From Sulfitobacter sp. SK012 (GTDB lineage Bacteria; Pseudomonadota; Alphaproteobacteria; Rhodobacterales; Rhodobacteraceae): a DNA stretch of 64,000 nucleotides. Below are positions 38,311-56,692 of the stretch, piece after piece. Position 1 is the first letter of the stretch. Each line of letters opens with the position of its first letter. A program made the translations under genes and the position numbers. Location: positions 930,001 to 994,000 of the forward strand of contig NZ_CP025804.1 in the NCBI RefSeq assembly GCF_003352085.1, read 5' to 3'. The notes under the pieces are model-generated. The model was not told the DNA's origin and did not search any database. It saw nothing but the letters and a program-made list of their open reading frames with translations.

Positions 38311-38601
38311 GTGGGCGCTATAAACAGGCAGCTTTCTCAGGTCATAGAATCAGCCGCGTGTGTAATTTGAGGGGTGGCTTTGAGATTCTCTGAGGCGCAT
38401 CGAGTTCAAGCCCGGGCTTGATTTTAGGAATCCGTCCTCATGTATCGCTTTAGGATAGATTTATATATTATTGTTTAAAAAGACTAAAATGCCTATATTG
38501 ATTTTTTTTGCAAACGTGTGCAAAAAATTGTTGTCAAACGCCCTATCTGCGCCCTAACCTGAAATGGCTAGTGGTGGTGCAAGCTGTATTGGGGGGCATA
38601 C
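38311..38601 (+). promoter_or_regulatory. gene-free promoter region of the 16-kb catabolic operon
   Basis: This stretch holds no gene. It is notably AT-rich from about 38450 on, unlike the surrounding DNA. A candidate promoter is TTGTCA (38531-38536) followed after 18 bases by TAACCT (38555-38560), directly downstream of the LacI-type operator at 38504-38527. The first 140 bases after the gcdH terminator show nothing recognisable. Confidence 0.45.
38504..38527. promoter_or_regulatory. LacI-family operator upstream of the ABC transporter genes
   Basis: TTTTTTGCA (38504-38512) and TGCAAAAAA (38519-38527) are a perfect 9-bp inverted repeat around AACGTG. The core GCAAACGTGTGC closely follows the GCAAACGTTTGC-type sites bound by LacI-family repressors, with the CG at the centre. 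The only LacI-family gene of the window (48105-49121) lies in the operon behind it, so autogenous control of the whole operon is likely. Confidence 0.8.
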
Positions 38602-39651
38602 ATGGCCCAGATCGAACTCCGGAATATCAATAAGCGATGGGGCAGTTTTGTCGGCGTCGAGAATTTTGATCTGACAATTGCAGATCAAGAGTTCTTAGTT
38701 TTGCTCGGGCCTTCGGGCTGCGGCAAAACGACAACGATGCGCATGATCGCGGGGCTAGAGGATATCACTGAAGGTAACATCCTCATTGATGGCAAGGTGG
38801 TGAACGACCTTGATCCCAAGGACCGCGATGTGGCGATGGTTTTTCAGTCCTATGGGCTTTATCCGCACATGAACGTCTATGAGAATATCCGCTTTCCGCT
38901 GAAGGTGCGTAAGGTCGATCCGGACACGCATGATGCGCGTGTGCGCCGTGCCAGTGCAATGGTTGAACTGGACGAGTTCCTGCACCGCAAACCTGCAGAG
39001 CTGTCGGGTGGTCAGCGTCAGCGCGTGGCACTTGCCCGTGCAATCGTGCGCGAGCCGAACGTGTTCTTGATGGACGAGCCACTGTCGAACCTTGATGCGA
39101 AATTGCGGGTATCGACCCGCGCGCAGATCAAGAACCTTAGTCATGAACTCAAAGTCACGACCGTCTATGTGACGCATGATCAGATCGAGGCGATGACCCT
39201 TGCAGACCGCGTTGTCGTTATGAAACAGGGCAAAGTCCAACAGGTCGGTACGCCGACAGAAATCTACGACAATCCGGCCAACACCTTCGTTGCATCCTTC
39301 ATCGGTTCGCCAGCGATGAACCTGATGGATGGCACGATTAAATCCGGCACGTTCACGGGCAAAAACGTTGAGATCAACGGACTTGATGCCAAAGACGGTG
39401 ACGTGACGCTGGGCTTCAGGGCTGAAGATGCCGAAGTTACGCCAGAGGGCCAAACCGGCCAGATTACAGCGCCCATCTATACCATTGAGTTGCTGGGTGA
39501 TGCCGTGATGCTCGCCGTGAAAGCGGGGGGGCAACTTATTTCTGTCAAAGCAGGCAAAGAATTCCGGGCAGATATTGGGGATGAAATCTCATTCTCGGTC
39601 ACGCCAGCAATTTGCCACGTATTTGATCGTGCAACAGGCGAACGGGCCTAG
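38602..39651 (+). CDS. ABC transporter ATP-binding protein (CUT1, UgpC/MalK type)
   Basis: This 349-residue protein powers the importer encoded next. Walker A GPSGCGKTTTMRM, the signature LSGGQRQRVALARAI, Walker B VFLMDEPLSNLDAK and the switch His in YVTHDQIEA are all present, followed by a C-terminal regulatory OB-fold domain (from about residue 240). CUT1 ATPases energise uptake of sugars, polyols or glycerol phosphates. It is the first gene behind the LacI operator. Confidence 0.92.
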   Translation: MAQIELRNINKRWGSFVGVENFDLTIADQEFLVLLGPSGCGKTTTMRMIAGLEDITEGNILIDGKVVNDLDPKDRDVAMVFQSYGLYPHMNVYENIRFPLKVRKVDPDTHDARVRRASAMVELDEFLHRKPAELSGGQRQRVALARAIVREPNVFLMDEPLSNLDAKLRVSTRAQIKNLSHELKVTTVYVTHDQIEAMTLADRVVVMKQGKVQQVGTPTEIYDNPANTFVASFIGSPAMNLMDGTIKSGTFTGKNVEINGLDAKDGDVTLGFRAEDAEVTPEGQTGQITAPIYTIELLGDAVMLAVKAGGQLISVKAGKEFRADIGDEISFSVTPAICHVFDRATGERA

Positions 39652-39738
39652 GTACGTTCAAGCGCCTCTTTGGGGGCCAAAACCACCGGTGCAGTCTTGC
39701 AAGTTGCACCGACTAATACTGCAACAGGGAGTTTAAAA

Positions 39739-40959
39739 ATGATGTTGAAGAAACTAGCACTGGCTGGGGCTATGTCTTTGATGGGCAGCACGGCATTTGC
39801 CGCCTGCGCGTTCGAGAATACGGTCCCCGTGAAATCACTTTCGGCGGGCTTTGAAGCCTGGAAAGCCGTAACCGACGCGATGGGCGAATGCGGTAATGTA
39901 CAGGCCGAGCTTGACCAGGAGTTTCGGACCAAGCAGCCGGCAGCGTTTGAGGCTAATCCGTCGCTCTATCAGATCGGTGGTGTGTCCAACGGTACGATCA
40001 CGCCGCTGCTGAATGCAGGCACAATTCGTCCGCTGGATGATCTGGTCGCAAAATACGGTCAAAACCTCGCACCGAACCAGTTGATCAAAATCGACGGCAA
40101 GGTCATGGCGATTGCGATGATGGTGAACACCCAGCACCTGATGTACCGCGAAGACATCCTGAGTGATTTGGGCATCGCAGTTCCAACCACATGGACTGAG
40201 GTTCTTGATGCCTCTGCTAAGATCAAAGAAGCCGGCGTTATCGATTACCCCCTGGGTGGAACGCTGAAATCTGGTTGGAACCTCGCGCAGGACTTCAACA
40301 ACATGTACGTCGGCTTTGGTGGCGAATTCTTCAATGATGATAACACGACAGCCGTGAACTCTGATGCCGGTGTTAAGGCATTGGAAGAGATCAAGGCGTC
40401 GATGGCGTATATGGATCCAGAGGTACTGGTCTCCGATTCCACATATGTGCAGCAGCAGTTCCAGCAGGGTAAAATCGCCATGGCGAACCTTTGGGCCAGC
40501 CGTGCAGCGGCAATGGATGATGAGGCCGAAAGCCAAGTCGTCGGCAAGGTCAAGATGGCCATGGCTCCGCTTGCAATGGATGGCGGTTCTCCCGCAACCA
40601 CCTTGTGGTGGGACGGTATCGTGATTGCGACCAACATCTCTGACGAAGAGGCTGATGCGGCCTTCCGCGTTGCGATGGAAGGGATCGACACCGAAATGGT
40701 CGAGGCCAACAACGACGCGGCGATATGGCTGGTGAGCGGCTATAAGCCAGGTGAATTGTCACAAGGCACCATCGCCACTGCGATGCACAGCCCGGCACCA
40801 CCTGCCTATCCGTCAACCACTCAGATGGGTCTGTTGCACACTGCGATTGGCAACGAAGTTCCAGCCTTCCTGACGGGCGACCGTGACGCAACAGCAACGC
40901 TGATGGCGATCCAAGAAGCCTACACAACGTCGGCAAAAGAAGAAGGCATTCTTAAGTAA
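39739..40959 (+). CDS. ABC transporter extracellular solute-binding protein (CUT1)
   Basis: The 406-residue periplasmic protein starts with a signal peptide (MMLKKLALAGAMSLMGSTAFA, cleavage before ACAF). The mature part has the bacterial family 1 binding-protein layout, with QIGGVSNGTITPLLNAGTIRPLDD early and WWDGIVIATN later. The ligand cannot be told from sequence. The start at 39739 follows GGGAG. A strong stem-loop follows the gene, as is common after binding-protein genes that need higher expression than the permeases. Confidence 0.9.
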   Translation: MMLKKLALAGAMSLMGSTAFAACAFENTVPVKSLSAGFEAWKAVTDAMGECGNVQAELDQEFRTKQPAAFEANPSLYQIGGVSNGTITPLLNAGTIRPLDDLVAKYGQNLAPNQLIKIDGKVMAIAMMVNTQHLMYREDILSDLGIAVPTTWTEVLDASAKIKEAGVIDYPLGGTLKSGWNLAQDFNNMYVGFGGEFFNDDNTTAVNSDAGVKALEEIKASMAYMDPEVLVSDSTYVQQQFQQGKIAMANLWASRAAAMDDEAESQVVGKVKMAMAPLAMDGGSPATTLWWDGIVIATNISDEEADAAFRVAMEGIDTEMVEANNDAAIWLVSGYKPGELSQGTIATAMHSPAPPAYPSTTQMGLLHTAIGNEVPAFLTGDRDATATLMAIQEAYTTSAKEEGILK

Positions 40960-40966
40960 ACCAACT

Positions 40967-40997
40967 GGCATCGGCCGGGCGCGATCCGGCCGATGCC
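40967..40997 (+). other. intra-operon stem-loop after the binding-protein gene
   Basis: GGCATCGGCCGG (40967-40978) and CCGGCCGATGCC (40986-40997) form a perfect 12-bp stem with a 7-base loop, eight bases after the stop codon. No T-run follows. Such elements after binding-protein genes protect the upstream mRNA and lower expression of the permease genes. Confidence 0.75.
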
Positions 40998-41110
40998 ATA
41001 CGACTTAGGGCGATTTTTGCCAGCCGCAGCGTGTCTGCTGCGCCCGGCTAAAACCGCACAGACTGGCGTATTCCAGCACATACCGTTTGACGCAATCGAG
41101 GGGACAGAAG

Positions 41111-42136
41111 ATGAAGTTCAAGACTTTCGCAGCCTTCGTAGGCCCGTCTATCTTCATGATGATCCTGTTCATCGCACTTCCACTAGTCAGCGTCTTTGTT
41201 GAGAGTTTCCGCAATACGTATGATCTGCGCGAACAGATCGAGGTCGAGACCTGCACGCCGGGCTTTTTGACTCAGACCTGCGTAACCGAGGTCAAAAATG
41301 TCCCTAAACTTGATGAGGACGGCAAAACCATCAAGATTACCGAATGGACTGGGCTTGAGAGCTACCGCAACGTTTTGCAGATGGACAAGTTCTGGGAAGC
41401 GGTAAAGTCCGGCAACTTTGGTGACATTCTTCAAATCGATTTTTGGAAAGCGCTGCGTTTTACGTTGATGTTCACGTTGTTAACGCTGCCTTTGGTGGTG
41501 GGCGTTGGGTTGATTATCGCTTTGACGGTCAACAATGCTGCAAGGGCGATACGCGGACCGGTGATCTTTATCTCGCTATTGCCCTTTATCATCACGCCGG
41601 TGATCGGCTCGCTGTCGATATATTGGCTCTTTGTTGGCGATGGCATCCTGACCTCCATGATGGAGCGGTGGACCGGCACCAACATTTCGATGTTCGCACA
41701 ATCCTGGACGATTGAGTTCCTGATGTATTTCTACCGGGTTTGGCACGTGGCACCCTTTGCCTTTGTGATCTTTTACGCGGGCCTTCAGACGGTAAATATG
41801 GACACGCTGGAAAGCGCGGTGATCGATGGCGCCAACCGGTTTGAGCGTTTGCGCTATGTTATCATTCCACATCTGATGCCGCTCATTGTCTTTATCGCAC
41901 TGATCCACCTGATGGATTGCTACCGCGTCTTTGAGGAGATTATTGGCTTCCGCAGCCAGGCCCACGTGATCTCGTTGCAGTGGCTGACCTATGACTTCCT
42001 CACCCCGGACGATTCAGGCAGCCGCGCGATCAGTCGTGCCTCCGCCTCGGCCATGCTGACCATGATTGGGATCGTCTTCCTGCTGATCCTACCGCTGCGC
42101 CGCACCTGGCGCGATCACAAAGGGGGGACGCACTGA
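41111..42136 (+). CDS. ABC transporter permease (MalF/UgpA type)
   Basis: This 341-residue inner-membrane protein has six or so membrane segments and the EAA loop LESAVIDGANRFERLRYVIIP that contacts the ATPase. Between the first and second segments lies an unusually long periplasmic loop of about 70-80 residues with two cysteines (ETCTPGFLTQTCVTEV) that could form a disulfide. A GAGGGG site precedes the ATG. Its stop overlaps the next permease start (TGATG). Confidence 0.9.
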   Translation: MKFKTFAAFVGPSIFMMILFIALPLVSVFVESFRNTYDLREQIEVETCTPGFLTQTCVTEVKNVPKLDEDGKTIKITEWTGLESYRNVLQMDKFWEAVKSGNFGDILQIDFWKALRFTLMFTLLTLPLVVGVGLIIALTVNNAARAIRGPVIFISLLPFIITPVIGSLSIYWLFVGDGILTSMMERWTGTNISMFAQSWTIEFLMYFYRVWHVAPFAFVIFYAGLQTVNMDTLESAVIDGANRFERLRYVIIPHLMPLIVFIALIHLMDCYRVFEEIIGFRSQAHVISLQWLTYDFLTPDDSGSRAISRASASAMLTMIGIVFLLILPLRRTWRDHKGGTH

Positions 42137-43296
42137 TGTCTTCTACTTCAAGAGCCATGCGGCAGTCCTTTGGCCTGCGCTTTGCCTCCGGCAGCTTCCT
42201 TGTTTTGTGGAGCATTATCGCGGCTTTCCCGATCATGTGGATCGCGATCATGAGCTTCAAGTCTCCGGTTGATGCCTTTGCTGACAGCCCGTGGCAGGTG
42301 ATTATGGGGCCCGCAACAAAAGCAGCTGGGAACGGTCTGTCGATCATCGACATCGTGCTTGGGCTCGCCGTGCTTTTCTTTACGATCCGCTGGGCCTTCA
42401 CGCGGCTGCCGGGTTTGATCAAAACATATGCGGCCGGTCCGTTTGTGGCACTTGGCTGGATTGTCGGCGCGGCCGCCTATGCGGTGGTATTCCTGTTGGT
42501 ATTCTTTGGCCTGCTGCCGCTGATCTTGGGACCGCTCAACAGCGTGCTTGGCCCGCTTGGAGAGCCGGTTCTTGGAATGACCACGCAGCATTATGTATCG
42601 GTTTGGGTCGAAAACCAGTTCTACCGAAACTTCCTCAACTCGATGTTGGTCACGGCGGGCGTGGTCTTGATCTCGCTGACTGTCGGGACGCTGGCAGGTT
42701 ACGGATTGGCCCGCTCGGGTTCTGACTTGGCATTTTGGCTGTTGATCGTGGCGCTGGTCTTTCGCGCTTTGCCGCATTCGGTGTTGGTTGCGGGGTATCT
42801 CCCGTGGTTCATCAACTCCGCCGAAATTCTACGCCCGATATTCGGGGATCTGTCGCCAACCCTCTACGGTCAACCGTGGGCCGTGATTGCGGTGTTGGTT
42901 GCGATCAACCAGCCATTCACGATTTGGATGCTACGCAGCTTTTTCCAGAACATCCCGGCTGAATTGGACGAGGCGGCGCGGGTCGATGGTTGTTCGCATT
43001 TTCAGGCGTTCCGGCGCGTTATTATGCCGGTCATGTGGCCGGGGGTTATCACCACGGGCCTCTTTAGCTTCCTTCTTGGCTATAATGACTTTCTTGTGAC
43101 GTCCTTGCTGCTTGATGCCCAGAACCAGACAATGGTGCCGGCCATCGCGGGCTATTTTAACCGCGAGACCACCACCACCGATCAGGTCGAAGCTGTGGCT
43201 GCCGCTGTCTCCATTACGGCTCCGCTCTTTTTGCTGGTCATGGTGTTCCAACGCCAGATTGTCTCGGGGCTTACCGCAGGAGCGGTCAAAGGATGA
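42136..43296 (+). CDS. ABC transporter permease (MalG/UgpE type) with an inserted membrane region
   Basis: This 386-residue permease has the EAA loop LDEAARVDGCSHFQAFRRVIMP and the usual C-terminal core. After the first membrane segment it carries about 90 extra residues with two or three further hydrophobic stretches (IIDIVLGLAVLFFTIRWAF and LGWIVGAAAYAVVFLLVFFG), which MalG-type permeases of about 280-300 residues lack. It overlaps the previous gene by one base; its stop overlaps the ATG of a 28-codon frame. Confidence 0.9.
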   Translation: MSSTSRAMRQSFGLRFASGSFLVLWSIIAAFPIMWIAIMSFKSPVDAFADSPWQVIMGPATKAAGNGLSIIDIVLGLAVLFFTIRWAFTRLPGLIKTYAAGPFVALGWIVGAAAYAVVFLLVFFGLLPLILGPLNSVLGPLGEPVLGMTTQHYVSVWVENQFYRNFLNSMLVTAGVVLISLTVGTLAGYGLARSGSDLAFWLLIVALVFRALPHSVLVAGYLPWFINSAEILRPIFGDLSPTLYGQPWAVIAVLVAINQPFTIWMLRSFFQNIPAELDEAARVDGCSHFQAFRRVIMPVMWPGVITTGLFSFLLGYNDFLVTSLLLDAQNQTMVPAIAGYFNRETTTTDQVEAVAAAVSITAPLFLLVMVFQRQIVSGLTAGAVKG

Positions 43297-43379
43297 GCGT
43301 CTCAGTCATTTTCAAAAAAGACCGCAGGGTTCAGAGGCCGTGCCTCTACCCGGGACAAACAACAGGACGAAACCGATGA
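43293..43379 (+). CDS. possible 28-codon coupling frame between permease and SnoaL gene
   Basis: A frame MSVSVIFKKDRRVQRPC... of 28 residues starts in an ATGA overlap with the permease stop and ends in a TGA that overlaps the ATG of the next gene. It fills the gap exactly. It could keep ribosomes moving between the two genes or encode a small protein; no family is recognised. Confidence 0.3.
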   Translation: MSVSVIFKKDRRVQRPCLYPGQTTGRNR

Positions 43380-43909
43380 AAGGCACACGCCCCGAGCAAG
43401 CTGTTCTCAGCCGCGATACCGATATGTCGAAAACCGGTGAAACCCGGGCGGTCATCGAAAACATGGTGGATGGTCTGAACGACCACAGCATCGACGGGAT
43501 CGGCGCATTCTTTCATGAGAGTTTTCGGTGGTTGGGCAATCAGGGGTGTGGGACCAAAACAGGTCTGACTGAATTTCAGGACAACTGGCAACGCCCCTTT
43601 CAGGCGGCGTTCTCAGATAAGGTCTGCGTTGATGAATCGCGGCTTTATATGGGCGAATGGGCTGCTGCCTTTGGCCGACAGGAAGCGACACATTCGGGGA
43701 CCTTCATGGGGATTGCGCCCACAGGAAAGCGTGTTGAAATCCGGTACATGGATTTCTGGAAGGTCGAAGACGGCAAGATTTCGGACAACTGGGTGATGGT
43801 CGATTTCCCGCATGTGATGGCCCAATTGGGCAAGGACGCATTTGATGGCGAGGGCTGGGAAGCCTTTGATAGAGGCGAAAAAACGCCGCCCCGCCCTGAC
43901 AATACATAG
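43376..43909 (+). CDS. SnoaL/NTF2-fold protein 1 (single domain)
   Basis: This 177-residue protein has the SnoaL-like pattern: a first helix ([30 protein letters not shown]), the central [19 protein letters not shown] and a last strand [25 protein letters not shown]. The end block with IxxxDFWxxxxGKIxxNWVxVD is shared with the other SnoaL proteins of this operon. SnoaL-fold proteins include cyclases, hydratases and isomerases, so the reaction is open. An AGGA lies nine bases before the ATG. Confidence 0.82.
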
Positions 43910-43917
43910 GTGACAGT

Positions 43918-45246
43918 ATGACGATCGATTATCTCAAGCGTGGTAAATCCGATGCAGAGCGTGGGGAGGATGATGCCAAAACCCGCGCAGTGGTCGAAAC
44001 AACCCTAAAAGATATTGAGACGCGCGGCGACGTGGCAGTTCGCGAGCTGTCAAAGAAGTTCGACAATTATACACCCGACAGCTTCAAGCTAAGCCAAAGC
44101 GATATTGAGGCATTGATGGCCTGCGTCTCACCGCAGGAAATGACAGACCTCAAGTTTGCTCAGGAAAATGTCCGGCGTTTTGCGCAAGCGCAGCGCGACT
44201 CGATGTTGGACATCGAAGTCGAAATGCAGCCCGGCGTGATCTTGGGTCATAAAAACATCCCCGTACAATCGGTGGGTTGCTACGTGCCGGGCGGCAAGTT
44301 TCCGATGGTGGCGTCGGCGCATATGTCCGTTGCTACGGCCAGCGTCGCTGGTGTGCCGCGCATTATCGCCTGCACGCCCCCCTTTAAGGGCGAGCCGAAC
44401 CCCGCCGTGATCGCCGCCATGCATCTAGGTGGCGCGCATGAGATTTACGTTTTGGGCGGCATTCAGGCCGTGGGGGCGATGGCGATTGGGACTGAAACCA
44501 TTGATCCTGTGCACCTGCTGGTTGGCCCCGGCAACGCATTTGTGGCTGAAGCCAAACGGCAGTTGTTTGGCCGCGTGGGCATCGATCTGTTTGCGGGTCC
44601 GACTGAGACGATGGTGATTGCCGATGACACCGTGGACGCCGAACTATGCGCCACCGATTTGCTGGGGCAGGCGGAGCATGGGTATAACAGTCCTTGCGTT
44701 TTGCTAACGAATTCGCGCAAGCTGGCGACAGACACGATGGCTGAAATCGCGCGGTTGCTTGAAATCCTACCCACCGCCGGCACCGCGCGCGTCAGCTGGG
44801 AAGACTACGGCGAGGTAATCGTTTGCGATACCTATGACGAGATGCTTGAGATGGCCGATGAGATCGCGTCTGAGCATGTGCAGGTGATGACGGATCGCGA
44901 CGATTGGTTTTTGGAACACATGACCTGTTATGGCGCGCTATTCTTGGGCGCACGGACGAATGTTGCGAATGGCGACAAGGTCATCGGGACCAATCATACG
45001 CTGCCCACCAAAAAGGCTGGGCGCTATACCGGAGGGCTTTGGGTTGGGAAATACCTCAAAACCCACAGCTATCAAAAGATCACGACAGATGAGGCCGCGG
45101 CAGAGATTGGCGCATATGGCTCTCGGCTTTGTATGCTCGAAGGGTTCGTGGGGCATGCTGAACAATGCAATGTCCGTGTGCGGCGGTACGGTGGTGTCAA
45201 CGTCCCTTATGGCGAGGGTGCGCCTGCGCTGAAGGCGGCGGAGTAG
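43918..45246 (+). CDS. histidinol-dehydrogenase-family enzyme (HpsN-like)
   Basis: This 442-residue NAD-dependent enzyme belongs to the HisD superfamily, which oxidises a primary alcohol to a carboxylate in two steps. Zinc ligands and catalytic residues are all kept: [12 protein letters not shown] (Gln and His), ASEHVQVMT (Glu-His pair), [13 protein letters not shown] (Asp) and [12 protein letters not shown] (His). It is not near any his biosynthesis gene and lies in a catabolic operon, which points to a HisD paralogue such as the sulfopropanediol dehydrogenase HpsN or one acting on a sugar alcohol. Confidence 0.85.
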
Positions 45247-45256
45247 GCCTACATAG

Positions 45257-46267: not shown

Positions 46268-47313
46268 GTGCTCGGCATACCGAGAATAAGGCGCTGATCG
46301 CCCGCTTGCGTAGCGCGATGTATGATTTTGACGCGAATAACGTGCGGGCGGTGTTGCATGAGATATGCGCACCTGATGTGGTCTTTCGCCTGGCCTTTCC
46401 GTTCGAGAGTACGACCGGGGTGGATGCCTATTTCGACAAAGCCTATGCGCCGTTGTCGCGCGCCATTCCTGATCTGGAACGGCGCGATCATATCGTTATG
46501 GCAGGGCCGTCATCAGAAGAGGACGATTGGATCGGGTGCGGCGGTTTCTATTGTGGGACGTTTAAGGCCCCTTGGCTCGATATCCCCGCGACTGGGCACG
46601 TGGTGCATATGCGCTTTCACGAATTCTACAGGGTAGTTGAGGGCCGTGTGGTCGAGATGCAGGCGCTTTGGGACATTCCAGAGGTGATGATGCAGGCAGG
46701 CGCATGGCCGCTAACGCCATCGTTGGGCCGTGAATGGCACGTTCCGGGGCCCGCCAGCAACGACGGCATTGTGCCAAGCCCTTATGATGCGGATGCAGGT
46801 GCTGCGACCTGTCAGCATATCGTCGATATGCTCAACCACCTGACGCGTCACCCGACCCAAGGTGGTCCCGATGTGATGGAAATGCCCCGATTTTGGCACC
46901 CAAGAATGAACTGGTACGGTCCCGCAGGCATAGGCACTGGGCGCGGGATCGAGGGCTTTAGAAACTGGCATCAAATCCCGTTTCTGAACGCTATGCCCGA
47001 CCGTGGAAAGTACGCGGATGAAGTTGCACATCATTTCTTCGGGGATCGCCAATATGCGGCCGTGACAGGCTGGCCCAATATGGCGCAGACGATTGATCAA
47101 GGCGGGTGGTTGGGCATTGCGCCCTCAGGTAAGAAGGTGACGATGCGGTCGCTTGATTTCTGGCGGCTGGAAAACGGGCTGATCCGCGAAAATTGGGTGC
47201 TCGTGGACCTCTTGCACGTGTATGATCAAATCGGCGTAGATGTGTTTGCGCGCATGCGCGAATTTAACAAGGCGCGTGCAGGATTTGACCCTCAGACAGG
47301 AGCGGCATTGTGA
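46264..47313 (+). CDS. SnoaL/NTF2-fold protein 3 (two-domain)
   Basis: This 349-residue protein resembles the preceding one. N-terminal half: MRFHEFYRVVEGRVVEMQALWDIPE; C-terminal half: RFWHPRMNWYGPAGIGTGRGIEG, then KVTMRSLDFWRLENGLIREN followed by WVLVDLLHVYDQIGVDVFARM. The two genes probably arose by tandem duplication and may form a heteromer. The start is a GTG overlapping the preceding stop (GTGA), and its own stop overlaps the SDR start in the same way. Confidence 0.8.
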   Translation: MSARHTENKALIARLRSAMYDFDANNVRAVLHEICAPDVVFRLAFPFESTTGVDAYFDKAYAPLSRAIPDLERRDHIVMAGPSSEEDDWIGCGGFYCGTFKAPWLDIPATGHVVHMRFHEFYRVVEGRVVEMQALWDIPEVMMQAGAWPLTPSLGREWHVPGPASNDGIVPSPYDADAGAATCQHIVDMLNHLTRHPTQGGPDVMEMPRFWHPRMNWYGPAGIGTGRGIEGFRNWHQIPFLNAMPDRGKYADEVAHHFFGDRQYAAVTGWPNMAQTIDQGGWLGIAPSGKKVTMRSLDFWRLENGLIRENWVLVDLLHVYDQIGVDVFARMREFNKARAGFDPQTGAAL

Positions 47314-48068
47314 GCTTACCCAGAACACCATCCTTTGATCTTTCCGGCAAGCGGGCGTTGGTCACAGGGGCTTCAACAGGCATCGGCCTTGGCTGTGCCG
47401 TTGCATTGGCCGAAGCGGGTGCGCATGTTGTCTGCGCTGCGCGCCGCGTTGATGTGCTGCAAGCGACTGTTGATGCGATGGCTGCCGAAGGTTGGTCCGT
47501 TGAGGCGCTCCCCTTGGATCAAACTGATTTGACGGCCCTCAAGAACGCGTTTGACGCGCCGTTTGACATCGTTGTGAATTCCGCCGGATTGGCGCGACAC
47601 AGCCCAGCCATTGAGACCCAAGCCGAGGATTTTGATGCCGTAATGGATGTGAATGTGCGCGGGGCTTACTTCGTGTCGTCCTATGCCGCAGAAGCGATGA
47701 TGGAGGCTGGGCGAGGCGGCTCGATCATCCACATCTCCAGCCAGATGGGCCATGTGGGCGGAATTGATCGCGCTGTGTATTGCGCGTCCAAACATGCGGT
47801 CGAAGGCATGGTCAAAGCGATGGCTGTCGAATGGGGCAAATCCAACATTCGCATCAACACGGTTTGCCCGACGTTTATTCGAACGCCTCTGTCGCAGCCG
47901 ACATTTGATAACCCCGAACGTTTCAAGTGGATCATGGAAAAGATCAAGTTACCGCGGGCAGGCGAGGTCTCTGACATTATGGGGGCGGTGCTTTTTCTGG
48001 CCTCAGATGCTGCGGCGATGGTGACTGGCACGGCAATGATGATCGATGGCGGCTGGACGGCGGATTGA
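47310..48068 (+). CDS. short-chain dehydrogenase/reductase
   Basis: This 252-residue SDR has the cofactor motif VTGASTGIGLG near residue 18, NSAGLARH, the catalytic Ser in IHISSQMGH and YCASKHAVEG with the Tyr/Lys pair, and a C-terminal MVTGTAMMIDGGWTAD that matches classical SDRs acting on sugars or small polyols. It starts with a GTG overlapping the previous stop. In this operon it could oxidise a secondary alcohol of the imported compound or an intermediate. Confidence 0.9.
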   Translation: MSLPRTPSFDLSGKRALVTGASTGIGLGCAVALAEAGAHVVCAARRVDVLQATVDAMAAEGWSVEALPLDQTDLTALKNAFDAPFDIVVNSAGLARHSPAIETQAEDFDAVMDVNVRGAYFVSSYAAEAMMEAGRGGSIIHISSQMGHVGGIDRAVYCASKHAVEGMVKAMAVEWGKSNIRINTVCPTFIRTPLSQPTFDNPERFKWIMEKIKLPRAGEVSDIMGAVLFLASDAAAMVTGTAMMIDGGWTAD

Positions 48069-48104
48069 TATGGGGCAGGGTGTCAAACAAGCCGGAGGGT
48101 CAAT

Positions 48105-49121
48105 ATGCGCAAGATAACCTCGCATGAAGTCGCGGAAAAGGCGGGCGTGAGCCGGTCAGCCGTGAGCCGTGTGTTTACGCCCGGTGCGTCCGTGAGCAAA
48201 GATACCGCCGCCAAGGTGCGCAAGGCTGCGCATGAATTGGGGTACCGTCCAAACGTGTTGGCACGCAGCCTGATTACGGGCCGTTCGCGCATTATCGGGT
48301 TGGTGGTCGCCTACTTGGAAAACCAATTCTACCCGGAAGCGATTGAACGGTTGAGTAAATCGCTGCAAGAGCGCGGCTATCACGTGCTGATTTTCATGGC
48401 CTCCAATGACGGGGCTGCGACGCAGAAAGTCATCGATGAACTGCTGGATTATCAGGTGGACGGCATCATCGCGGCGTCGGTCGGCATGTCCAACGACCTG
48501 ACCCGGCGTTGCGAAGAAGCAGGCATTCCTATTGTCCTCTTTAACCGTCGCCAGAACGACGCGCGCCTGTCGAGTGTGACGTCGGACAATCACGCAGGCG
48601 GTGCTGCTTTGGCGCAATTCCTATTGGAATCGGGGCACCAGCACATCGGCCATATTGCCGGTTGGGAAGGGGCCTCGACCCAGATCGACCGTGAAGCGGG
48701 GTTTGTGACGGCTCTGGATACGGCTGATGTCGCGCTGTCCGCACGTGAGGTGGGTAACTTTGACTTTGAGCGGGCCAAATCTGCTGCGCGCAAGATGTTT
48801 GGTGGTGACGCACCACCCCAGGCGGTGTTTGTCGCCAATGATCACATGGCTTTTGCGGTGATGGATGTGCTGCGCTTTGAGTTGGGAATTGATGTGCCGG
48901 GCGATGTGTCGGTCGTAGGGTTCGATGACGTTCTGCTTGCCAGTTGGCCAACCTACAACCTGACCACTGTGCGCCAGCGTGCCAATCAGATGGTCGCAGA
49001 AACCGTCAGAGTTTTGATGGAACGTTTGGACGCTACCCCCACTGGCCCGCGCCAGATCGAGATCGAGGCCCCCCTTATCATTCGCGGCTCTGCCCGCACT
49101 ATTCAAGGATCAACGACATGA
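48105..49121 (+). CDS. LacI-family transcriptional regulator
   Basis: This 338-residue repressor has the LacI HTH (TSHEVAEKAGVSRSAVSRVF) with hinge helix PNVLARSLITGRS, and a periplasmic-binding-like effector domain. A GGAGG site precedes the ATG. The only LacI-type operator found in the window lies at 38504-38527 in front of the first gene, so it probably represses the operon including itself, relieved by the imported compound or a product. Its stop overlaps the next start (ATGA). Confidence 0.93.
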   Translation: MRKITSHEVAEKAGVSRSAVSRVFTPGASVSKDTAAKVRKAAHELGYRPNVLARSLITGRSRIIGLVVAYLENQFYPEAIERLSKSLQERGYHVLIFMASNDGAATQKVIDELLDYQVDGIIAASVGMSNDLTRRCEEAGIPIVLFNRRQNDARLSSVTSDNHAGGAALAQFLLESGHQHIGHIAGWEGASTQIDREAGFVTALDTADVALSAREVGNFDFERAKSAARKMFGGDAPPQAVFVANDHMAFAVMDVLRFELGIDVPGDVSVVGFDDVLLASWPTYNLTTVRQRANQMVAETVRVLMERLDATPTGPRQIEIEAPLIIRGSARTIQGSTT

Positions 49122-50101
49122 ACGGTTTTGACCCCAAATTCACAGATTTCCCCGATTACATCATCGGTATCACCAAGGAAATCTGGGAAGACCGCGGCAT
49201 TGCCACGCTGCACCAATATTACAGCGACGATATTGTGGTGCGCTCTCCCGGCTCAGTTGTGATCGGAAATAAATCGGTGATTGGTGCGACGATGGCGACG
49301 TTGGCCGAATTTCCTGACAGATGCCTGTTGGGCGAAGACGTGATTTGGTCCGGATCGCCCGAAGAAGGGATGCTGTCCTCGCACCGCATCCTATCCACTG
49401 CAACACATAGCGGCGATGGAATGTATGGTGCGGCGACGGGCAAGCGGCTTGCCTACCGGATCATGGCCGACTGTCATGCGATCAACAATCAGATCAACGA
49501 CGAGTGGCTGATCCGCGATCAAGGGGCCATCGTGCGTCAGATGGGCTGGGATCCAAAAGATTATGCCGCTGATTTGATTGCACGCGAAGGCGGGCCAGAG
49601 CAGTGTGTGCAACCGCTGACGCCTGCGATCGACCAAGCGGGGCCTTACAAAGGGCGCGGAAATGACAATGAATGGGGCACCAAATATGCCGATATTCTAA
49701 CCCGGTTAATGGGTGCGGATATGGCGCAGATCCCCAAGGAATACGACCGCGCGGTGCAAACCGAATACCCCGGTGGGGTCACGGGCCATAGCCACGAGTC
49801 GGTCGATGGTTTTTGGATGGGCCTGCGGGCGTCATTTCCCAACGCAACGTTTCAAATCGACCATGTGATTGGCCGCGATGACGCGCTGATGTCGCCCCGC
49901 GCCGCTGTACGCTGGTCGCTGAAAGGCAAGCATGATGGATGGGGCAGCTTTGGCACGCCTTCGGGCGCGGATGTCTATGTGTTGGGCATCAGCCATGCAG
50001 AGTTCGGCCCCTATGGGGTGCGGCGGGAATATACGATTTTGGACGAAGCAATTGTTTGGAAACAGATTTTGATGCAAACGGGAGAACGCCTGGATGCGTA
50101 A
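49118..50101 (+). CDS. SnoaL/NTF2-fold protein 4 (two-domain)
   Basis: This 327-residue protein begins MNGFDPKFTDFPDYIIGITK and has a first NTF2-like part (RGIATLHQYYSDDIVVRSPG, then GKRLAYRIMADCHAINNQINDEWLIRDQGAIVRQMGWD) followed by a second one (HESVDGFWMGLRASFPNATF, then RREYTILDEAIVWKQIL). It is more distant from proteins 2 and 3 than these are from each other. It overlaps the LacI stop by four bases. Confidence 0.78.
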   Translation: MNGFDPKFTDFPDYIIGITKEIWEDRGIATLHQYYSDDIVVRSPGSVVIGNKSVIGATMATLAEFPDRCLLGEDVIWSGSPEEGMLSSHRILSTATHSGDGMYGAATGKRLAYRIMADCHAINNQINDEWLIRDQGAIVRQMGWDPKDYAADLIAREGGPEQCVQPLTPAIDQAGPYKGRGNDNEWGTKYADILTRLMGADMAQIPKEYDRAVQTEYPGGVTGHSHESVDGFWMGLRASFPNATFQIDHVIGRDDALMSPRAAVRWSLKGKHDGWGSFGTPSGADVYVLGISHAEFGPYGVRREYTILDEAIVWKQILMQTGERLDA

Positions 50102-50270
50102 TGGTGCGATTACCTTTTCGATGCCAGCTAGCGCGCAGGTATTTCTGCCTGAGGGTGCGAACAAGATTGCCGTAGGCACTTTGGCTGCAGGTGTTCAAAT
50201 TCCAACGAGTATTGATGGTACCAAAACGGCAGCCCAAACCAACACGCTGCGCGAAGGGTGGCTCGGATGA
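50094..50270 (+). CDS. small uncharacterised protein (58 residues) inside the operon
   Basis: A frame of 58 residues starts MRNGAITFSMPASAQ within the last codons of the SnoaL gene and ends in a TGA overlapping the next ATG (ATGA). Both ends are coupled to neighbours, and the frame has no internal drift in codon use, which supports a real gene. The product has no hydrophobic segment or known motif. It could be a small subunit or regulator of the enzymes. Confidence 0.55.
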   Translation: MRNGAITFSMPASAQVFLPEGANKIAVGTLAAGVQIPTSIDGTKTAAQTNTLREGWLG

Positions 50271-50896
50271 AACCCTACGGTGATATCATGTTCACGCCTA
50301 CCATGTTGGAGGCACAGGCCCGCGCCGGATCGCAGGAAGCCAATCTGGCGCGCTACCAGCGTCTGCGTCCAGAAGGGTTGGGCCCTGACGAAGTCGCTTT
50401 TCTCCAAAGTCGCACCACGATTTACATGGCCACTGTCACTGCGGATGGCTGGCCTTATGTGCAGCATCGGGGTGGTCCGGTGGGATTTCTTAAGGTGCTG
50501 AACCCGCAAACCATTGGCTTTACCGACTACCGCGGCAACCGCCAGTTCATCACCACAGGCAATCTGGTTACAGACGACCGGGTTTCGATCTTTGCGATGG
50601 ATTATGCACGCAAGGCGCGGCTCAAGCTTCAGGGGCATGGGCGCATGATTGATGCGGCAGACGACCCAGATCTGGCTGCGCAATTGGCCACCCCCGGCCA
50701 AGGACGGGTCGAGCGGATCATGACAATCACGCTGGCCGCCTTTGACTGGAATTGCCCGCAATACATAACACCCCGCTTTGATACCGCCGAGATGACAGCC
50801 CTTGTTGGTCCGGAGTTGACGCGCCTTGAGACCCGCAACGCAGAGCTTGAGGCCGAATTGGCCCAATTGCGTGCACAGTTAGGAGCCACTGAATGA
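50267..50896 (+). CDS. pyridoxamine 5'-phosphate oxidase-like flavin-binding protein
   Basis: This 209-residue protein has the split-barrel flavin-binding pattern: FLQSRTTIYMATVTADGWPY, then VQHRGGPVGFLKVL, GFTDYRGNRQFITTGNL and DDRVSIFAMDYARKARLKLQG. Members bind FMN or F420 and reduce small substrates or act as sensors. A C-terminal coiled-coil tail of about 25 residues (LTRLETRNAELEAELAQLRAQL) could mediate oligomerisation. It overlaps both neighbouring genes by four bases. Confidence 0.85.
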   Translation: MKPYGDIMFTPTMLEAQARAGSQEANLARYQRLRPEGLGPDEVAFLQSRTTIYMATVTADGWPYVQHRGGPVGFLKVLNPQTIGFTDYRGNRQFITTGNLVTDDRVSIFAMDYARKARLKLQGHGRMIDAADDPDLAAQLATPGQGRVERIMTITLAAFDWNCPQYITPRFDTAEMTALVGPELTRLETRNAELEAELAQLRAQLGATE

Positions 50897-51858
50897 CCCC
50901 CCAAGAGATGGAAAACCGCATCGTCCGCTACGGTGATCTGCGCCCCTGCAAGACCGCGTTCATCGACGCCCATACGCCAGGGTCGGATCAAAAAGAGAAC
51001 TTTACCATTATTGGGGGGGGCGTGTCTGAATCTGCAGATCAACATGTCCACATCGCAATCCCGCATGGGTTCAACATCGGGGCTGCAGGACAGCCGCCCA
51101 AGTGCCGCAATTCGCTGCACAGCCACCGCACCGCAGAGGTGTTTTTTGTCCTCAAGGGCCGCTGGCGCTTTTTCTGGGGCCGGTGGGGTGACGCGGGCGA
51201 GGTGACACTTGAAGAAGGCGATATCATCAATATCCCGACGGGTATTTTTCGTGGATTTGAAAATATCGGCACCGACTACGGAATGATAATGGCGATCCTT
51301 GGTGGCGATGATGCCGGTGGCGGTGTGATCTGGGCCCCACAGGTGATCGAAGACGCTGCTGGACATGGATTGGTACTCGGGCAGAACGGCAAACTTTATG
51401 ACACTAAAAAAGGGATGGCGCTTCCTCAGGGCGTTGGCCCGATGCCGGTTCTGACGGATCAAGAACTCACCGCGTTCCCCGAGCCCAACACGGCCCAAGT
51501 CGTGCCGGGATATGTCGCGCGCCATCTTGATCTGATTGCATTGGCGGACCGCAAACCAGCGAAAGTGATCGGCGAAAATGGCATCCTGCGTGACAAGCCG
51601 GGTTTTGAAGTTGATTTCATCACACGCAGCAGCGCGACGGATGCGATGCATAGCCATGACAAACCATCGGTTTTGATGCCCATGCGCGGCCATTGGCACG
51701 TGAAGTGGGAAGGCGGGGCCGCGACGCTGGCACCCGGCGACACCATGTCGGTGCCTGCAAATCTGGCGCATTCTGCTGTGCCATCGATGACCGGGGAGGC
51801 GACACTTTATCATGTCGTCGCCACGGAGGATCCCGCGGGCCTGACCTGGCAAGGGTGA
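50893..51858 (+). CDS. bicupin protein
   Basis: This 321-residue protein contains two cupin barrels. The first has HSHRTAEVFFVLKG, the usual HxH-x4-E metal part, but the second-motif His is missing (GDIINIPTGIFRGFEN). The second has HSHDKPSVLMPMRG and PANLAHSAV, keeping HxH and the distal His but not the Glu. Each barrel thus lacks one common ligand. The order of barrels recalls gentisate 1,2-dioxygenase-type bicupins, though the residues do not prove dioxygenase activity. It overlaps the flavoprotein gene by four bases. Confidence 0.85.
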   Translation: MTPQEMENRIVRYGDLRPCKTAFIDAHTPGSDQKENFTIIGGGVSESADQHVHIAIPHGFNIGAAGQPPKCRNSLHSHRTAEVFFVLKGRWRFFWGRWGDAGEVTLEEGDIINIPTGIFRGFENIGTDYGMIMAILGGDDAGGGVIWAPQVIEDAAGHGLVLGQNGKLYDTKKGMALPQGVGPMPVLTDQELTAFPEPNTAQVVPGYVARHLDLIALADRKPAKVIGENGILRDKPGFEVDFITRSSATDAMHSHDKPSVLMPMRGHWHVKWEGGAATLAPGDTMSVPANLAHSAVPSMTGEATLYHVVATEDPAGLTWQG

Positions 51859-51910
51859 TCCGTTCACCGCTTGCCGCGCACAGACCAACAAGAATTGAAG
51901 GACTTAATCG

Positions 51911-53038
51911 ATGACGAAGACAACCCATGTAGGATCATTGCCGCGCACTCAGGACGTGGTTGATTTCATCTTTGCACGCGAAAAGGGTGAGAAATACGAC
52001 CTGGACGCCTTTGACAATTGCATGACGGCTGCAGTGTCGAGCACGGTGGCCAAGCAAGTTGCCGCTGGCATTGATATTGTCAGCGACGGTGAAACCTCCA
52101 AGATCAGCTATGCCACGTATGTCAAAGACCGGTACACGGGGTTTTCTGGCGATGGACCACGCAATGCACCCGGCGACCTCAAGCAATTCCCAAGCTTTCT
52201 AAAGCGTCTCGCTGAGGAGGGTGGCACACCGCAATACGCGCGGCCTATGTGCACCGGCGCGGTTAAATCCAAGGGGCAGGGCGAATTGCAAAAGGACATC
52301 GGCAACCTGCAAGCTGCGATCAAAACCCACGGAGCCGAGCGTGGGTTTATGAACGCCGCTTCTCCAGGAGTGATTTCACTGTTTTTGCAGAATGAGCACT
52401 ACAAGACACGCGACGCCTACCTTGCGGCGCTGGCCGATGCGATGCGTGAGGAATACGAATTCATTGTCGCCGCCGGTCTTGATCTACAGCTGGATTGCCC
52501 GGATTTGGCGTTGTCGCGGCATATGCTTTTCAATGATCTGAGCGATAAGGAATTCTTGAAGATAGCGGCAAGCCATGTCGAAGCGTTGAACCATGCGTTG
52601 CAAAATGTCCCTGAAGACCGCGTGCGCATCCACATCTGTTGGGGCAATTATGAAGGTCCTCATGTTTGCGACATTGGCATGGAAAAGGTGTTTGATACGC
52701 TGATGTCGGCCAAGGCACGCTATGTGTTGTTCGAAACGTCGAACCCGCGCCACGCCCATGAATGGACGGTGTTTCGGGATCGCAAAGCGGACATCCCTGA
52801 CGGTAAGGTGCTGGTGCCCGGTGTTGTCGATACCACCACCAACTTTGTGGAGCACTCGGAAGTTGTCGCCCAAAGGATTGAGCGGTTTACCGAGATCGTA
52901 GGCCAAGACCGGGTCATTGCCGGCAGTGATTGCGGCTTTGGCACATTTGCAGGCTACGGTGCCGTTGACCCACAGATCGCCTATGCTAAGCTGAGCGCGC
53001 TGTCCGAAGGGGCCGCCATTGCGCGAGATCGGGCATGA
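51911..53038 (+). CDS. MetE C-terminal-like zinc enzyme
   Basis: This 375-residue protein equals only the catalytic TIM-barrel half of cobalamin-independent methionine synthase. The zinc ligands are present as His241, Cys243 (RIHICWGNYEGPH) and Cys341 (AGSDCGFGTF). The N-terminal half used for folate-dependent methyl transfer is absent. Stand-alone members of this family activate a thiol, for instance in epoxyalkane:coenzyme M transfer, or move alkyl groups from sulfur or oxygen compounds. In this operon it may remove or transfer a substituent of the imported compound. It overlaps the next gene by four bases. Confidence 0.82.
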   Translation: MTKTTHVGSLPRTQDVVDFIFAREKGEKYDLDAFDNCMTAAVSSTVAKQVAAGIDIVSDGETSKISYATYVKDRYTGFSGDGPRNAPGDLKQFPSFLKRLAEEGGTPQYARPMCTGAVKSKGQGELQKDIGNLQAAIKTHGAERGFMNAASPGVISLFLQNEHYKTRDAYLAALADAMREEYEFIVAAGLDLQLDCPDLALSRHMLFNDLSDKEFLKIAASHVEALNHALQNVPEDRVRIHICWGNYEGPHVCDIGMEKVFDTLMSAKARYVLFETSNPRHAHEWTVFRDRKADIPDGKVLVPGVVDTTTNFVEHSEVVAQRIERFTEIVGQDRVIAGSDCGFGTFAGYGAVDPQIAYAKLSALSEGAAIARDRA

Positions 53039-53727
53039 ACGACAGCCTTCTCGCACTGCTCAAAAAAGTGGACACCCCCACGGTCTGCAACGCCATTGAA
53101 GTGGCACAAGGTAAGCGCGGGTTTGACGCATTTACCCGCGGTACCATGCTGGCCTCTGCTCCGGGCGAGGCAATGGTGGGGTATGCGCGCACTGCTCGCA
53201 TCCGCGCTGTTACTCCGCCCGGTGAAGCGTCTGACGTGATCCGCGCGCGCCGGATGGGGTATTACGAATACATGGCAAGCGGCCCGCGCCCCGGCATCGC
53301 GGTGGTGCAGGACCTCGATGTGCCAAATGCCATCGGTGCTTACTGGGGTGAGGTGAACACCAATATACACAAGGCATTTGGCCTCTCAGGGGCGTTGACG
53401 GACGGGGTCATGCGCGATCTGGGCGATTTGCCGGACGGGTTTCCTGTGGTTGCCGGATCCATCGGGCCAAGCCACGGATTTGTGCACGTTATTGACTTTG
53501 ATCAACCGGTTCAGGTGCATGGAATGACCGTGGCTCCCGACGCGCTGGTGCATGCAGATCGGCATGGTGCGGTGGTAATCCCTGACGATGTGGTGGCTGG
53601 ACTTGAGACCGCGGTCGCGCAGCTTTTTGCGTCAGAGAATATCGTGCTGGATGCAGTCAAAGGCCAGCAGATCGACTTTGCGCAATTCGAGGGTATCTGG
53701 GCTGCTTTTGAGAAATCGCGCACCTAG
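53035..53727 (+). CDS. RraA-like aldolase/decarboxylase
   Basis: This 230-residue protein is similar to the RraA / HMG-CHA aldolase family. The key Arg-Asp pair lies in ALTDGVMRDLGDL, and GPSHGFVHVIDFDQPV and VHADRHGAVVIP match the metal-binding part, so it may be an active class II aldolase splitting 4-hydroxy-2-oxo acids to pyruvate, rather than the RNase E inhibitor. It overlaps the preceding MetE-like gene. Confidence 0.85.
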   Translation: MNDSLLALLKKVDTPTVCNAIEVAQGKRGFDAFTRGTMLASAPGEAMVGYARTARIRAVTPPGEASDVIRARRMGYYEYMASGPRPGIAVVQDLDVPNAIGAYWGEVNTNIHKAFGLSGALTDGVMRDLGDLPDGFPVVAGSIGPSHGFVHVIDFDQPVQVHGMTVAPDALVHADRHGAVVIPDDVVAGLETAVAQLFASENIVLDAVKGQQIDFAQFEGIWAAFEKSRT

Positions 53728-53739
53728 AAAGGGCTGGCC

Positions 53740-54228
53740 GTGATCCGTATCGTTGACCCCATCGACGACCTTGCCGCGGTGGCTGCGTTTTATGCGGATG
53801 CGCCTGACTATTGGGTTCTGGCTGATGGGGTGCCGCCCGGCCCACAAAAGGCGGCCGAGTTTTTCACGGACACGCCACCCAATTGCGATCCTGCTGAATC
53901 GCATCATTTGGGCCTGTTCCTCGAAGGGCGGCTGTCCGGCCTTGCCGAGCTCTCTTTTGGCTTTCCTGAAGTGGGGGACGCATATCTTGGTCTGCTGATG
54001 CTCGGCCCGTGGGCGCAGGGGGTTGGCCATGGGCGGGTGATGTTGAACGAAGTTGAAACCCGCGCCCGCTCGATGGGCGCTCCAAACCTTTACCTTGCGG
54101 TTTTGGCCGGCAACCCTCGTGGCCGTGCATTTTGGGACCGCGAAGGCTTTGCTGATACCGGTTTGGGCCGCGACACGGTGGTTGGCGACCGAGCAGAGCG
54201 CATCACGCGCTTGGTCAAACCACTCTAG
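53740..54228 (+). CDS. GNAT-family N-acetyltransferase
   Basis: This 162-residue protein has the GNAT pattern DPAESHHLGLFLEGRLSGLAELSF, then LGPWAQGVGHGRVMLNEVETRA for acetyl-CoA and LAVLAGNPRGRAFWDREGF. It starts with a GTG nine bases after AAAGG. It is the last plus-strand gene of the operon; its acceptor is unknown. Its end overlaps the convergent enolase-superfamily gene by four bases, leaving no room for a separate terminator. Confidence 0.82.
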   Translation: MIRIVDPIDDLAAVAAFYADAPDYWVLADGVPPGPQKAAEFFTDTPPNCDPAESHHLGLFLEGRLSGLAELSFGFPEVGDAYLGLLMLGPWAQGVGHGRVMLNEVETRARSMGAPNLYLAVLAGNPRGRAFWDREGFADTGLGRDTVVGDRAERITRLVKPL

Positions 54229-56597: not shown

Positions 56598-56692
56598 GGG
56601 CAGGGTCCTTTGATGGCGTTCTTTTGCCAAGGTCGCGCGATTCCGATCCCACGTGCAAGTGCCTTCCGCGACCTAGAAAAGAAAGATACCGA

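Follow-up and report, generated by a model that had tools for sequence, protein, structure and literature searches.

The window analyzed here, a 64,000-nucleotide stretch of Sulfitobacter sp. SK012 (contig NZ_CP025804.1, positions 930,001 to 994,000 of the forward strand), contains an apparently LacI-controlled operon that encodes an importer, four SnoaL-fold proteins and several candidate catabolic enzymes, and it raises the question of which compound such an operon would degrade. A sequence-only reading had proposed an imported polyhydroxylated compound that is oxidized, stripped of a methyl, alkyl or sulfo group, reshaped by the SnoaL proteins and split by an aldolase. We propose that the operon, together with a co-regulated SnoaL gene located elsewhere in the genome (SnUp), imports and breaks down mycosporine-like amino acids (MAAs) such as porphyra-334, shinorine, mycosporine-glycine and their relatives, a reading to which we assign a probability of about 0.6. 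The assignment draws on the shared operator, the genomic neighborhood, residue patterns and the balance of chemical formulas, from which we infer the substrate and every reaction, and the single steps are less certain than the pathway as a whole.

MAAs serve widely as UV screens in algae, cyanobacteria, corals and marine animals; porphyra-334 contains glycine and threonine, and shinorine contains glycine and serine. To our knowledge, no genes for MAA breakdown are known. If the proposal is true, the cluster would supply marker genes for an unseen flow of carbon and nitrogen from phytoplankton and corals to bacteria, many proteins now named 'ester cyclase' or 'NTF2 family' would gain functions, and a few purified enzymes would suffice to test the fate of natural sunscreens directly.

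Organization of the operon

The open reading frame (ORF) list and profile searches against Pfam and NCBIfam placed 16 co-directional plus-strand genes between 38,602 and 54,228. The single plus-strand operon read earlier was therefore retained with 16 genes in place of 17, and all of the families named for it (a CUT1 importer, four SnoaL/NTF2 proteins, HisD-like and short-chain dehydrogenase/reductase (SDR) enzymes, a flavoprotein, a bicupin and MetE-C-like, RraA-like and GNAT proteins) were recovered by Pfam. The LacI-type operator claimed ahead of the series is a palindrome at 38,508-38,523, and the genes run from 38602. The first gene encodes an ATP-binding cassette (ABC) ATPase, and the LacI gene is internal. 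The majority of the gene junctions are overlapping or short, with four larger gaps of about 87, 151, 127 and 156 bp; these sizes use start codons of the binding-protein gene (39739) and Sn1 (43424) that were re-set by reading the ORF list.

The features are given below with their occurrence in 80 related loci, which are the best 80 of 382 confirmed Sn3 relatives from a contig scan with Sn3 as the sole query and are biased to close relatives; some loci stop at contig ends, so counts of absence are upper bounds.

38508..38523, no strand: LacI-type operator TTGCAAACGTGTGCAA, an exact palindromic site
38602..39651, plus: CUT1 ABC transporter ATPase, UgpC/MalK type (PF00005, PF17912; NF008653 above cut-off; 75/80 loci)
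39739..40959, plus: extracellular solute-binding protein, SBP_bac_1 (PF01547; start taken as the first ATG; 78/80 loci, 60 at >=50% identity)
40967..40997, plus: perfect 12-bp stem with a 7-nt loop, computed, 3' of the binding-protein gene
41111..42136, plus: ABC permease 1 (PF00528)
42136..43296, plus: ABC permease 2 (PF00528)
43424..43909, plus: Sn1, single-domain SnoaL protein (PF07366, searched from 43418; 73/80 loci)
43918..45246, plus: HisD/HpsN-like dehydrogenase, predicted alcohol-to-acid, motif GKFPM (PF00815; nearest PDB chains HpsN; 77/80 loci)
45257..46267, plus: Sn2, tandem-length SnoaL protein of limited distribution (PF07366; best match in 11/80 loci, 10 Tateyamaria and HIMB11)
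46264..47313, plus: Sn3, tandem SnoaL protein (PF07366, two stretches; 80/80 loci, as the query)
47310..48068, plus: SDR oxidoreductase (PF13561; 74/80 loci)
48105..49121, plus: LacI-family regulator (PF00356, PF13377; 77/80 loci)
49118..50101, plus: Sn4, tandem-length SnoaL protein (PF07366; 78/80 loci, 75 at >=50% identity)
50258..50896, plus: PNPOx-type flavoprotein, accessory (PF01243; 22/80 loci)
50893..51858, plus: bicupin, putative ring-opening dioxygenase (PF07883; 76/80 loci)
51911..53038, plus: MetE-C-like zinc methyltransferase without the folate-binding N-domain (PF01717; 72/80 loci)
53035..53727, plus: RraA-like aldolase (PF03737; 66/80 loci)
53740..54228, plus: GNAT acetyltransferase (PF00583; 0/80 loci)

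As the GNAT gene was found in none of the related loci and the PNPOx gene in only 22, neither was counted as core, and the GNAT protein is probably not part of the pathway. The stem-loop directly 3' of the binding-protein gene possibly raises the level of its transcript relative to those of the permeases. An Rfam scan returned no family at the gathering score.

A shared operator links the operon to a distant SnoaL gene

In the window, the operator pattern had a single match at up to two mismatches (38508-38523), against 0.33 expected. Upstream of the ABC gene in the 75 loci where this gene was >60% identical, the best site differed from TTGCANACGTNTGCAA by no mismatch in 48 loci, one in 20, two in 2 and five in 5; 68/75 of these regions had the operator at no more than one mismatch, compared with 0/1500 shuffled controls. 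As the pattern was derived from the site in the window and the loci are relatives of one another, this recurrence is conservation rather than a set of independent origins. The LacI gene inside the operon and this conserved, putative operator together point to LacI control.

The whole genome (5.18 Mb) fit the pattern at up to one mismatch in two places, the cluster promoter and a site with one mismatch that lies 41 bp before the ORF of SnUp and 1.6 Mb from the cluster, and the pattern read backwards had no match in the genome. SnUp is a further tandem SnoaL protein of 334 amino acids with two SnoaL stretches (G000:C1:2578843-2579905), and its gene is adjoined by a TrkA-like gene in the window genome as well as in genomes G055 and G240. 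At the same SnUp place, G055, which belongs to the same genus, has a palindromic site with two mismatches no more than 18 bp from the ORF, and G240, from another genus, has a perfect site 519 bp ahead of the ORF, an interval in which a small same-strand gene could fit. The operator pattern occurred at least once, at up to one mismatch, in 15 of the 16 cluster-bearing genomes searched. One such site, in G015, lies where an HpaI-type aldolase gene begins. Some genomes have additional sites away from the cluster; for example, at three sites with one mismatch (G089:C23:70252, G066:C5:110139 and G238:C1:192350) no related gene was recognized alongside. SnUp is divergent from and adjoins an importer gene in many other loci.

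SnUp and the catabolism of threonine, serine and glycine

A threonine, serine or glycine catabolic gene (kbl, tdh, sdaA, gcvP or gcvT) was present within 6 kb of 18 of the 110 SnUp copies, with sdaA in 12 cases, kbl-tdh in 5 and gcvP-gcvT in 1; this count left out loci below L029, short duplicates (L120-L124, L145-L152, L204, L205, L217, L218) and L193-L200. The sdaA loci have one common arrangement, found in Vibrio-type genomes and one f69 genome. kbl-tdh stands by SnUp in three arrangements: one occurs in a single Vibrionaceae-type genome, one is shared by three f251 genomes, and one belongs to Ensifer adhaerens, where tdh-kbl separates SnUp from the degradative operon. gcvP-gcvT stands by SnUp on one Granulosicoccaceae contig; family names of G-numbered genomes are inferred. 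One example of each arrangement scored above the NCBIfam cut-off, save the f69 sdaA. Each of the three f251 genomes had two kbl copies, one of them by SnUp, and nine other genomes searched had one. In L181, gcvP lies about 8 kb from SnUp, past the 6-kb limit, and was not counted; among the searched loci without a called SnUp, such genes were found in L113 only, which is the Ensifer region again.

Because the co-regulated SnUp is tied in some lineages to threonine, serine and glycine catabolism, the SnoaL proteins would probably release amino acids, and the earlier suggestion that they reshape a sugar-like compound is disfavored; for the same reason we favor an MAA over a sugar or polyol. At 327-349 amino acids, Sn2, Sn3 and Sn4 have the length of tandem SnoaL proteins, with two separate Pfam stretches in Sn3 alone and one each in Sn2 and Sn4. 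The best structural matches of the predicted Sn3 model, which is less certain than that of the bicupin (predicted local distance difference test score, pLDDT, 73.9), were Lsd19 and MonB, two epoxide hydrolases of the tandem SnoaL type, together with single SnoaL cyclases.

The amino-acid link alone does not name the other half of the molecule, and the operon might act on another serine, threonine or glycine conjugate, such as a different O- or N-methylated natural product; a sarcosine oxidase gene (with purU too in one record) does adjoin the Vibrio pelagius clusters. We consider such a conjugate rather improbable, as the C7 balance set out below, the HisD target (a CH2OH by a tertiary hydroxyl), the activated enol methyl ether and an earlier suggestion made for Vibrio harveyi fit MAAs specifically.

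SnUp was found in 48 of the 197 genomes of a family taken as Vibrionaceae from 92-96% identity to Vibrio proteins. A frequent minimal locus in these regions consists of LacI, SnUp, a major facilitator superfamily transporter and a sodium-solute transporter, often with a porin, and a DNA search with the Vibrio SnUp gene gave no match in E. coli genomes. Among the best 120 of 2679 matches, relatives of the Vibrio-type SnUp at 75-90% identity were seen in Cetobacterium, Ilyobacter, Psychrilyobacter, Clostridium grantii, Acetoanaerobium, Atlantibacter and Endozoicomonas, several of which are anaerobes or animal associates. Sulfatase genes occur near SnUp in two lineages, in L104 (6465-7847) and L129 (4948-6450; both PF00884) and also in L130 and L164 (recognized by 94-96% identity). 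Palythine-serine and palythine-threonine sulfates are counted among the MAAs in a review (PMC3083659).

Conservation and variation of the gene set

Seven chosen core genes (ABC ATPase, permease 2, Sn1, HisD, Sn3, Sn4 and cupin) were found together in 72 of the 80 loci, which include Sulfitobacter, Tateyamaria, Ruegeria, Roseibium, Oricola, Pararhizobium, Cohaesibacter and SAR324. The co-occurrence in other genomes on which the sequence-only reading had staked its claim of novelty was thus observed, and on its sequence the operon is real and conserved. The poorest locus, L104, is a 7.8-kb contig with just two SnoaL genes of the set. Beyond the genes listed above, an alpha/beta-hydrolase was present in 41 loci, an S-adenosylmethionine-dependent methyltransferase in 33, a COG3618-type amidohydrolase in 21 and a GMC protein in 9; PNPOx and alpha/beta-hydrolase never co-occurred in the 72 full loci. 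Glutathione transferase was rejected as a cluster member, with 10/80 loci only. At E<=0.001, a threshold loose enough to let in paralogues, 125 of the 295 family genomes had relatives of Sn3; at 1e-30, 22 of 398 genomes across the phylum did.

Rhodobacterales, rhizobia and SAR324 keep the core set, and Vibrio and a haloarchaeon have sets related to it. Plasmid records with related sets came from Ruegeria, Paracoccus, Octadecabacter, Marinovum, Phaeobacter, Ensifer, Vibrio pelagius and Halobellus limi. Gammaproteobacterial loci encode an HpcH/HpaI aldolase in some cases and RraA in others (RraA in L179, L183 and L210; both in L180). The importers vary as well, being of the CUT1, tripartite ATP-independent periplasmic (TRAP) or sodium-solute symporter type, sometimes with a TonB receptor. 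The recurring set consists of SnUp, Sn3, Sn4 or SnB, HisD, SDR, cupin, MetE, LacI, a lactonase or hydrolase and an aldolase, and its recurrence with varied importers and aldolases suggests a small, polar substrate whose aldol cleavage gives pyruvate.

On the Halobellus limi plasmid (L112), a MetE-like gene accompanies five SnoaL genes; an aldehyde dehydrogenase and other oxidoreductases take the place of HisD, and a phosphonate-type transporter lies nearby. The Phaeobacter inhibens DOK1-1 plasmid (L118) carries an apparent remnant, in which an ABC ATPase and SnoaL sequences lie close to insertion sequences and most of the set is not annotated.

The HisD-like dehydrogenase and sulfonate substrates

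The nearest relative of the HisD-like protein in a PDB sequence search was HpsN, and catabolism of sulfopropanediol (DHPS) or of another sulfonate through an HpsN homologue was considered on this ground. The recognition motif is GRY[AS]H in HpsN, with a sulfonate-binding His, and GSAPL in HisD (PMC11382572). The operon protein has neither, reading GKFPM in 77/77 alignment rows, and a GRYSH-type copy exists elsewhere in the genome; we therefore regard sulfonate catabolism by this operon as extremely improbable, and the sulfo group allowed by the earlier proposal as unlikely. The GSAPL-type motif of HisD is not absolute, as another HisD-family gene in the genome, 37% identical, reads GLASY there. 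Given its own motif and the separate GRYSH copy, the operon enzyme may oxidize another kind of CH2OH with a neighboring hydroxyl, such as the one at C5 of MAAs; the alcohol-to-acid step read earlier is supported by family membership. The GRYSH gene is located in L002 (G000:C1:2428945-2433213), beside SDR, alcohol dehydrogenase and TRAP-like permease genes recognized by eye, and L002 is a probable DHPS locus.

The MetE-like enzyme, bicupin and aldolase

The MetE-like protein (375 amino acids) matched the catalytic-domain family PF01717 as its sole Pfam family, the N-terminal folate-binding domain being absent. In an alignment of seven sequences, H241, C243, E275 and C341 were invariant and matched the zinc ligands of MetE structures (His-x-Cys, Glu, Cys). 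The GS and DGE motifs, to which we attribute a role with homocysteine, are also kept. Homology to core methionine synthases makes methylation of homocysteine by this enzyme plausible, and an enol methyl ether is an activated methyl donor.

The MetE-like enzyme might instead act on sulfur, if the substrate were a sulfonium or S-methyl compound akin to dimethylsulfoniopropionate (DMSP). An SBP56 methanethiol oxidase gene stands by SnoaL clusters on two roseobacter plasmids (L119, 21539-28181; L115, 13699-15762), the first of which also has DmdA and other DMSP genes. Among the loci checked, SBP56 was present in these two alone, and at least two further same-contig pairs within about 10 kb (G235 and G223, noticed by eye) were among the matches listed for the 295 family genomes. 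We judge a sulfur substrate very improbable.

The predicted bicupin model (pLDDT 84.6) matched quercetinase, oxalate decarboxylase and salicylate dioxygenase, and also seed storage vicilins, at query TM-scores of 0.43-0.53; such matches indicate the fold, not the reaction. H76, H78, E82 and R120 were invariant in alignments, and a PDB sequence search found no relative at E 0.001. In the RraA-like protein, the aldolase motifs GVMRD and HADxHG are kept in >=97% of 67 rows, and we take their RD and HAD-type residues to be catalytic. Its match to the ligK_PcmE model (E 6e-5) was far under the cut-off. Pyruvate aldolases from two unrelated families, RraA and HpaI, occur in these clusters, and the pyruvate-releasing aldolase of the sequence-only reading is supported at the level of family.

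A proposed pathway and its alternatives

In the proposed pathway, an MAA would be taken up by the CUT1 importer, SnUp would hydrolyze the hydroxyamino acid (threonine or serine) from the cyclohexenimine ring, and another SnoaL protein (Sn3, Sn4 or Sn1) would free glycine to leave 4-deoxygadusol. The MetE-like zinc enzyme would then transfer the enol O-methyl group to homocysteine, the HisD-like enzyme would oxidize the C5 hydroxymethyl group to a carboxylate, and the bicupin would open the 1,2,3-trioxygenated ring with O2, helped by a lactonase or alpha/beta-hydrolase where present. Finally, an RraA- or HpaI-type aldolase would split the predicted C7 product, 4-carboxy-4-hydroxy-2-oxoadipate, into pyruvate and oxaloacetate. 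The SDR is given no step in this scheme.

The formulas balance, as C7H10O5 - 2H + O + O2 = C7H8O8: oxidizing the CH2OH of 2-demethyl-4-deoxygadusol (C7H10O5) and cleaving the ring with O2 yields a compound whose formula is that of 4-carboxy-4-hydroxy-2-oxoadipate (C7H8O8). The latter is a known aldolase substrate that yields pyruvate and oxaloacetate. More tentatively, at somewhat below even odds, we suggest complete aerobic degradation of MAAs with new activities (hydrolysis of amino acids from cyclohexenimine or cyclohexenone rings by tandem SnoaL proteins, enol-ether-to-methionine transfer by the MetE-like enzyme and a bicupin reductone dioxygenase), which would convert the sedoheptulose-derived C7 core to exactly pyruvate and oxaloacetate, together with a reduced version (SnUp, transporters and serine/threonine enzymes) in Vibrio and other bacteria that just harvest the amino acids.

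Several observations weigh against the assignment to MAAs. No threonine, serine or glycine catabolic gene was found in the available flank, up to 6 kb, of 92 of the 110 SnUp copies, including all examined Rhodobacterales, and many loci had less than 6 kb of flank on one side. Of the 110 copies, 17 are only 32-39% identical to a SnUp query and may be paralogues. As the sdaA cases share one arrangement, the independent arrangements number about five, none of them in Rhodobacterales. Eight genomes with an adjacent sdaA have 2-3 copies of this gene, and four searched without the adjacency also have 2, which is no clear excess; the symporter neighboring sdaA-SnUp could be a serine transporter. The choice of genes was partly post hoc, as the MAA idea, framed from chemistry, came before it, the serine and glycine genes were spotted by eye and the threonine genes were added later. 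The bicupin has an Arg (R120) at the usual position of the fourth metal ligand, and no ligand or His is invariant in the C-terminal domain. The methanethiol oxidase genes described above lie near the cluster on two plasmids. Finally, the importer is of a sugar type, and the lactonases (COG3618 or SMP-30) and the MLE dehydratase would fit a sugar-acid pathway too.

These last points bear on an alternative in which the operon would break down an unusual sugar or polyol (methylated, branched or deoxy) by a non-phosphorylative route. An SDR would form a lactone, a COG3618 or SMP-30 protein would open it, MLE would give a 2-keto-3-deoxy acid, RraA or HpaI would release pyruvate, and the HisD-like enzyme would oxidize a CH2OH. 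Two genes convergent with the operon, the first of them encoding the MLE dehydratase, are relevant here:

54225..55457, minus: enolase-superfamily protein, MLE/galactonate dehydratase-like (PF13378; 24/80 loci, 23 at >=50% identity)
55509..56630, minus: zinc alcohol dehydrogenase (PF00107; 12/80 loci)

By eye, the MLE protein reads GTHGQ where we would expect the first metal-binding Asp of related dehydratases, and its activity may differ. A sugar-type binding protein in the importer, the COG3618 (21/80) and MLE genes, an SMP-30 lactonase in one Ruegeria and an HpaI-type protein whose best score, below the cut-off, was to a 2-dehydro-3-deoxyglucarate aldolase model all speak for a sugar. Such a route, however, gives no role to four or five SnoaL proteins or to the threonine, serine and glycine genes by the co-regulated SnUp; MLE was not found in 56 of the 80 loci; and the O-methyl group of a sugar, being unactivated, donates poorly to a zinc-thiolate enzyme. 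We consider a sugar or polyol unlikely and retain the MAA reading. From the imported compound proposed earlier, a polar substrate, probably with an activated methyl group, is kept, and a sugar or polyol is less favored than an MAA.

Comparison with known systems

The open-access literature searched, which held no preprints and few subscription papers, contained no described pathway or gene cluster with this set of genes, in line with the novelty claimed from the sequence, and neither it nor the portions of reviews available in it described MAA catabolic genes. Homarine and other known roseobacter substrates were rejected as candidates, no matching operon having been found in the literature search.

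Vibrio harveyi was suggested to hydrolyze the amino acids off porphyra-334 and shinorine (Dunlap and Shick, cited in PMC3083659). This resembles our proposal in the removal of hydroxyamino acids from MAAs, which we predict for SnUp, and it differs in that the passages available to us name no genes or enzymes and describe neither ring cleavage nor demethylation. The core methionine synthases MesA-D (PMC7857596) are like the MetE-like protein in having the MetE catalytic domain with its zinc ligands and no folate domain, whereas the protein studied here sits in a catabolic operon.

HpsN, the (R)-DHPS 3-dehydrogenase, belongs to the same family as the HisD-like protein, with which its zinc and catalytic positions align, but only HpsN has the sulfonate-recognizing His motif. 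Non-phosphorylative pathways of the fucose/rhamnose type share the SDR, COG3618 lactonase, MLE dehydratase and pyruvate aldolase types with these clusters, and they are not known to have SnoaL, MetE-like or HisD-like members. The LigK/ProA 4-carboxy-4-hydroxy-2-oxoadipate aldolases resemble the RraA-like protein weakly in sequence; they belong to the RraA superfamily, and their substrate is the one predicted here for the final step of MAA degradation.

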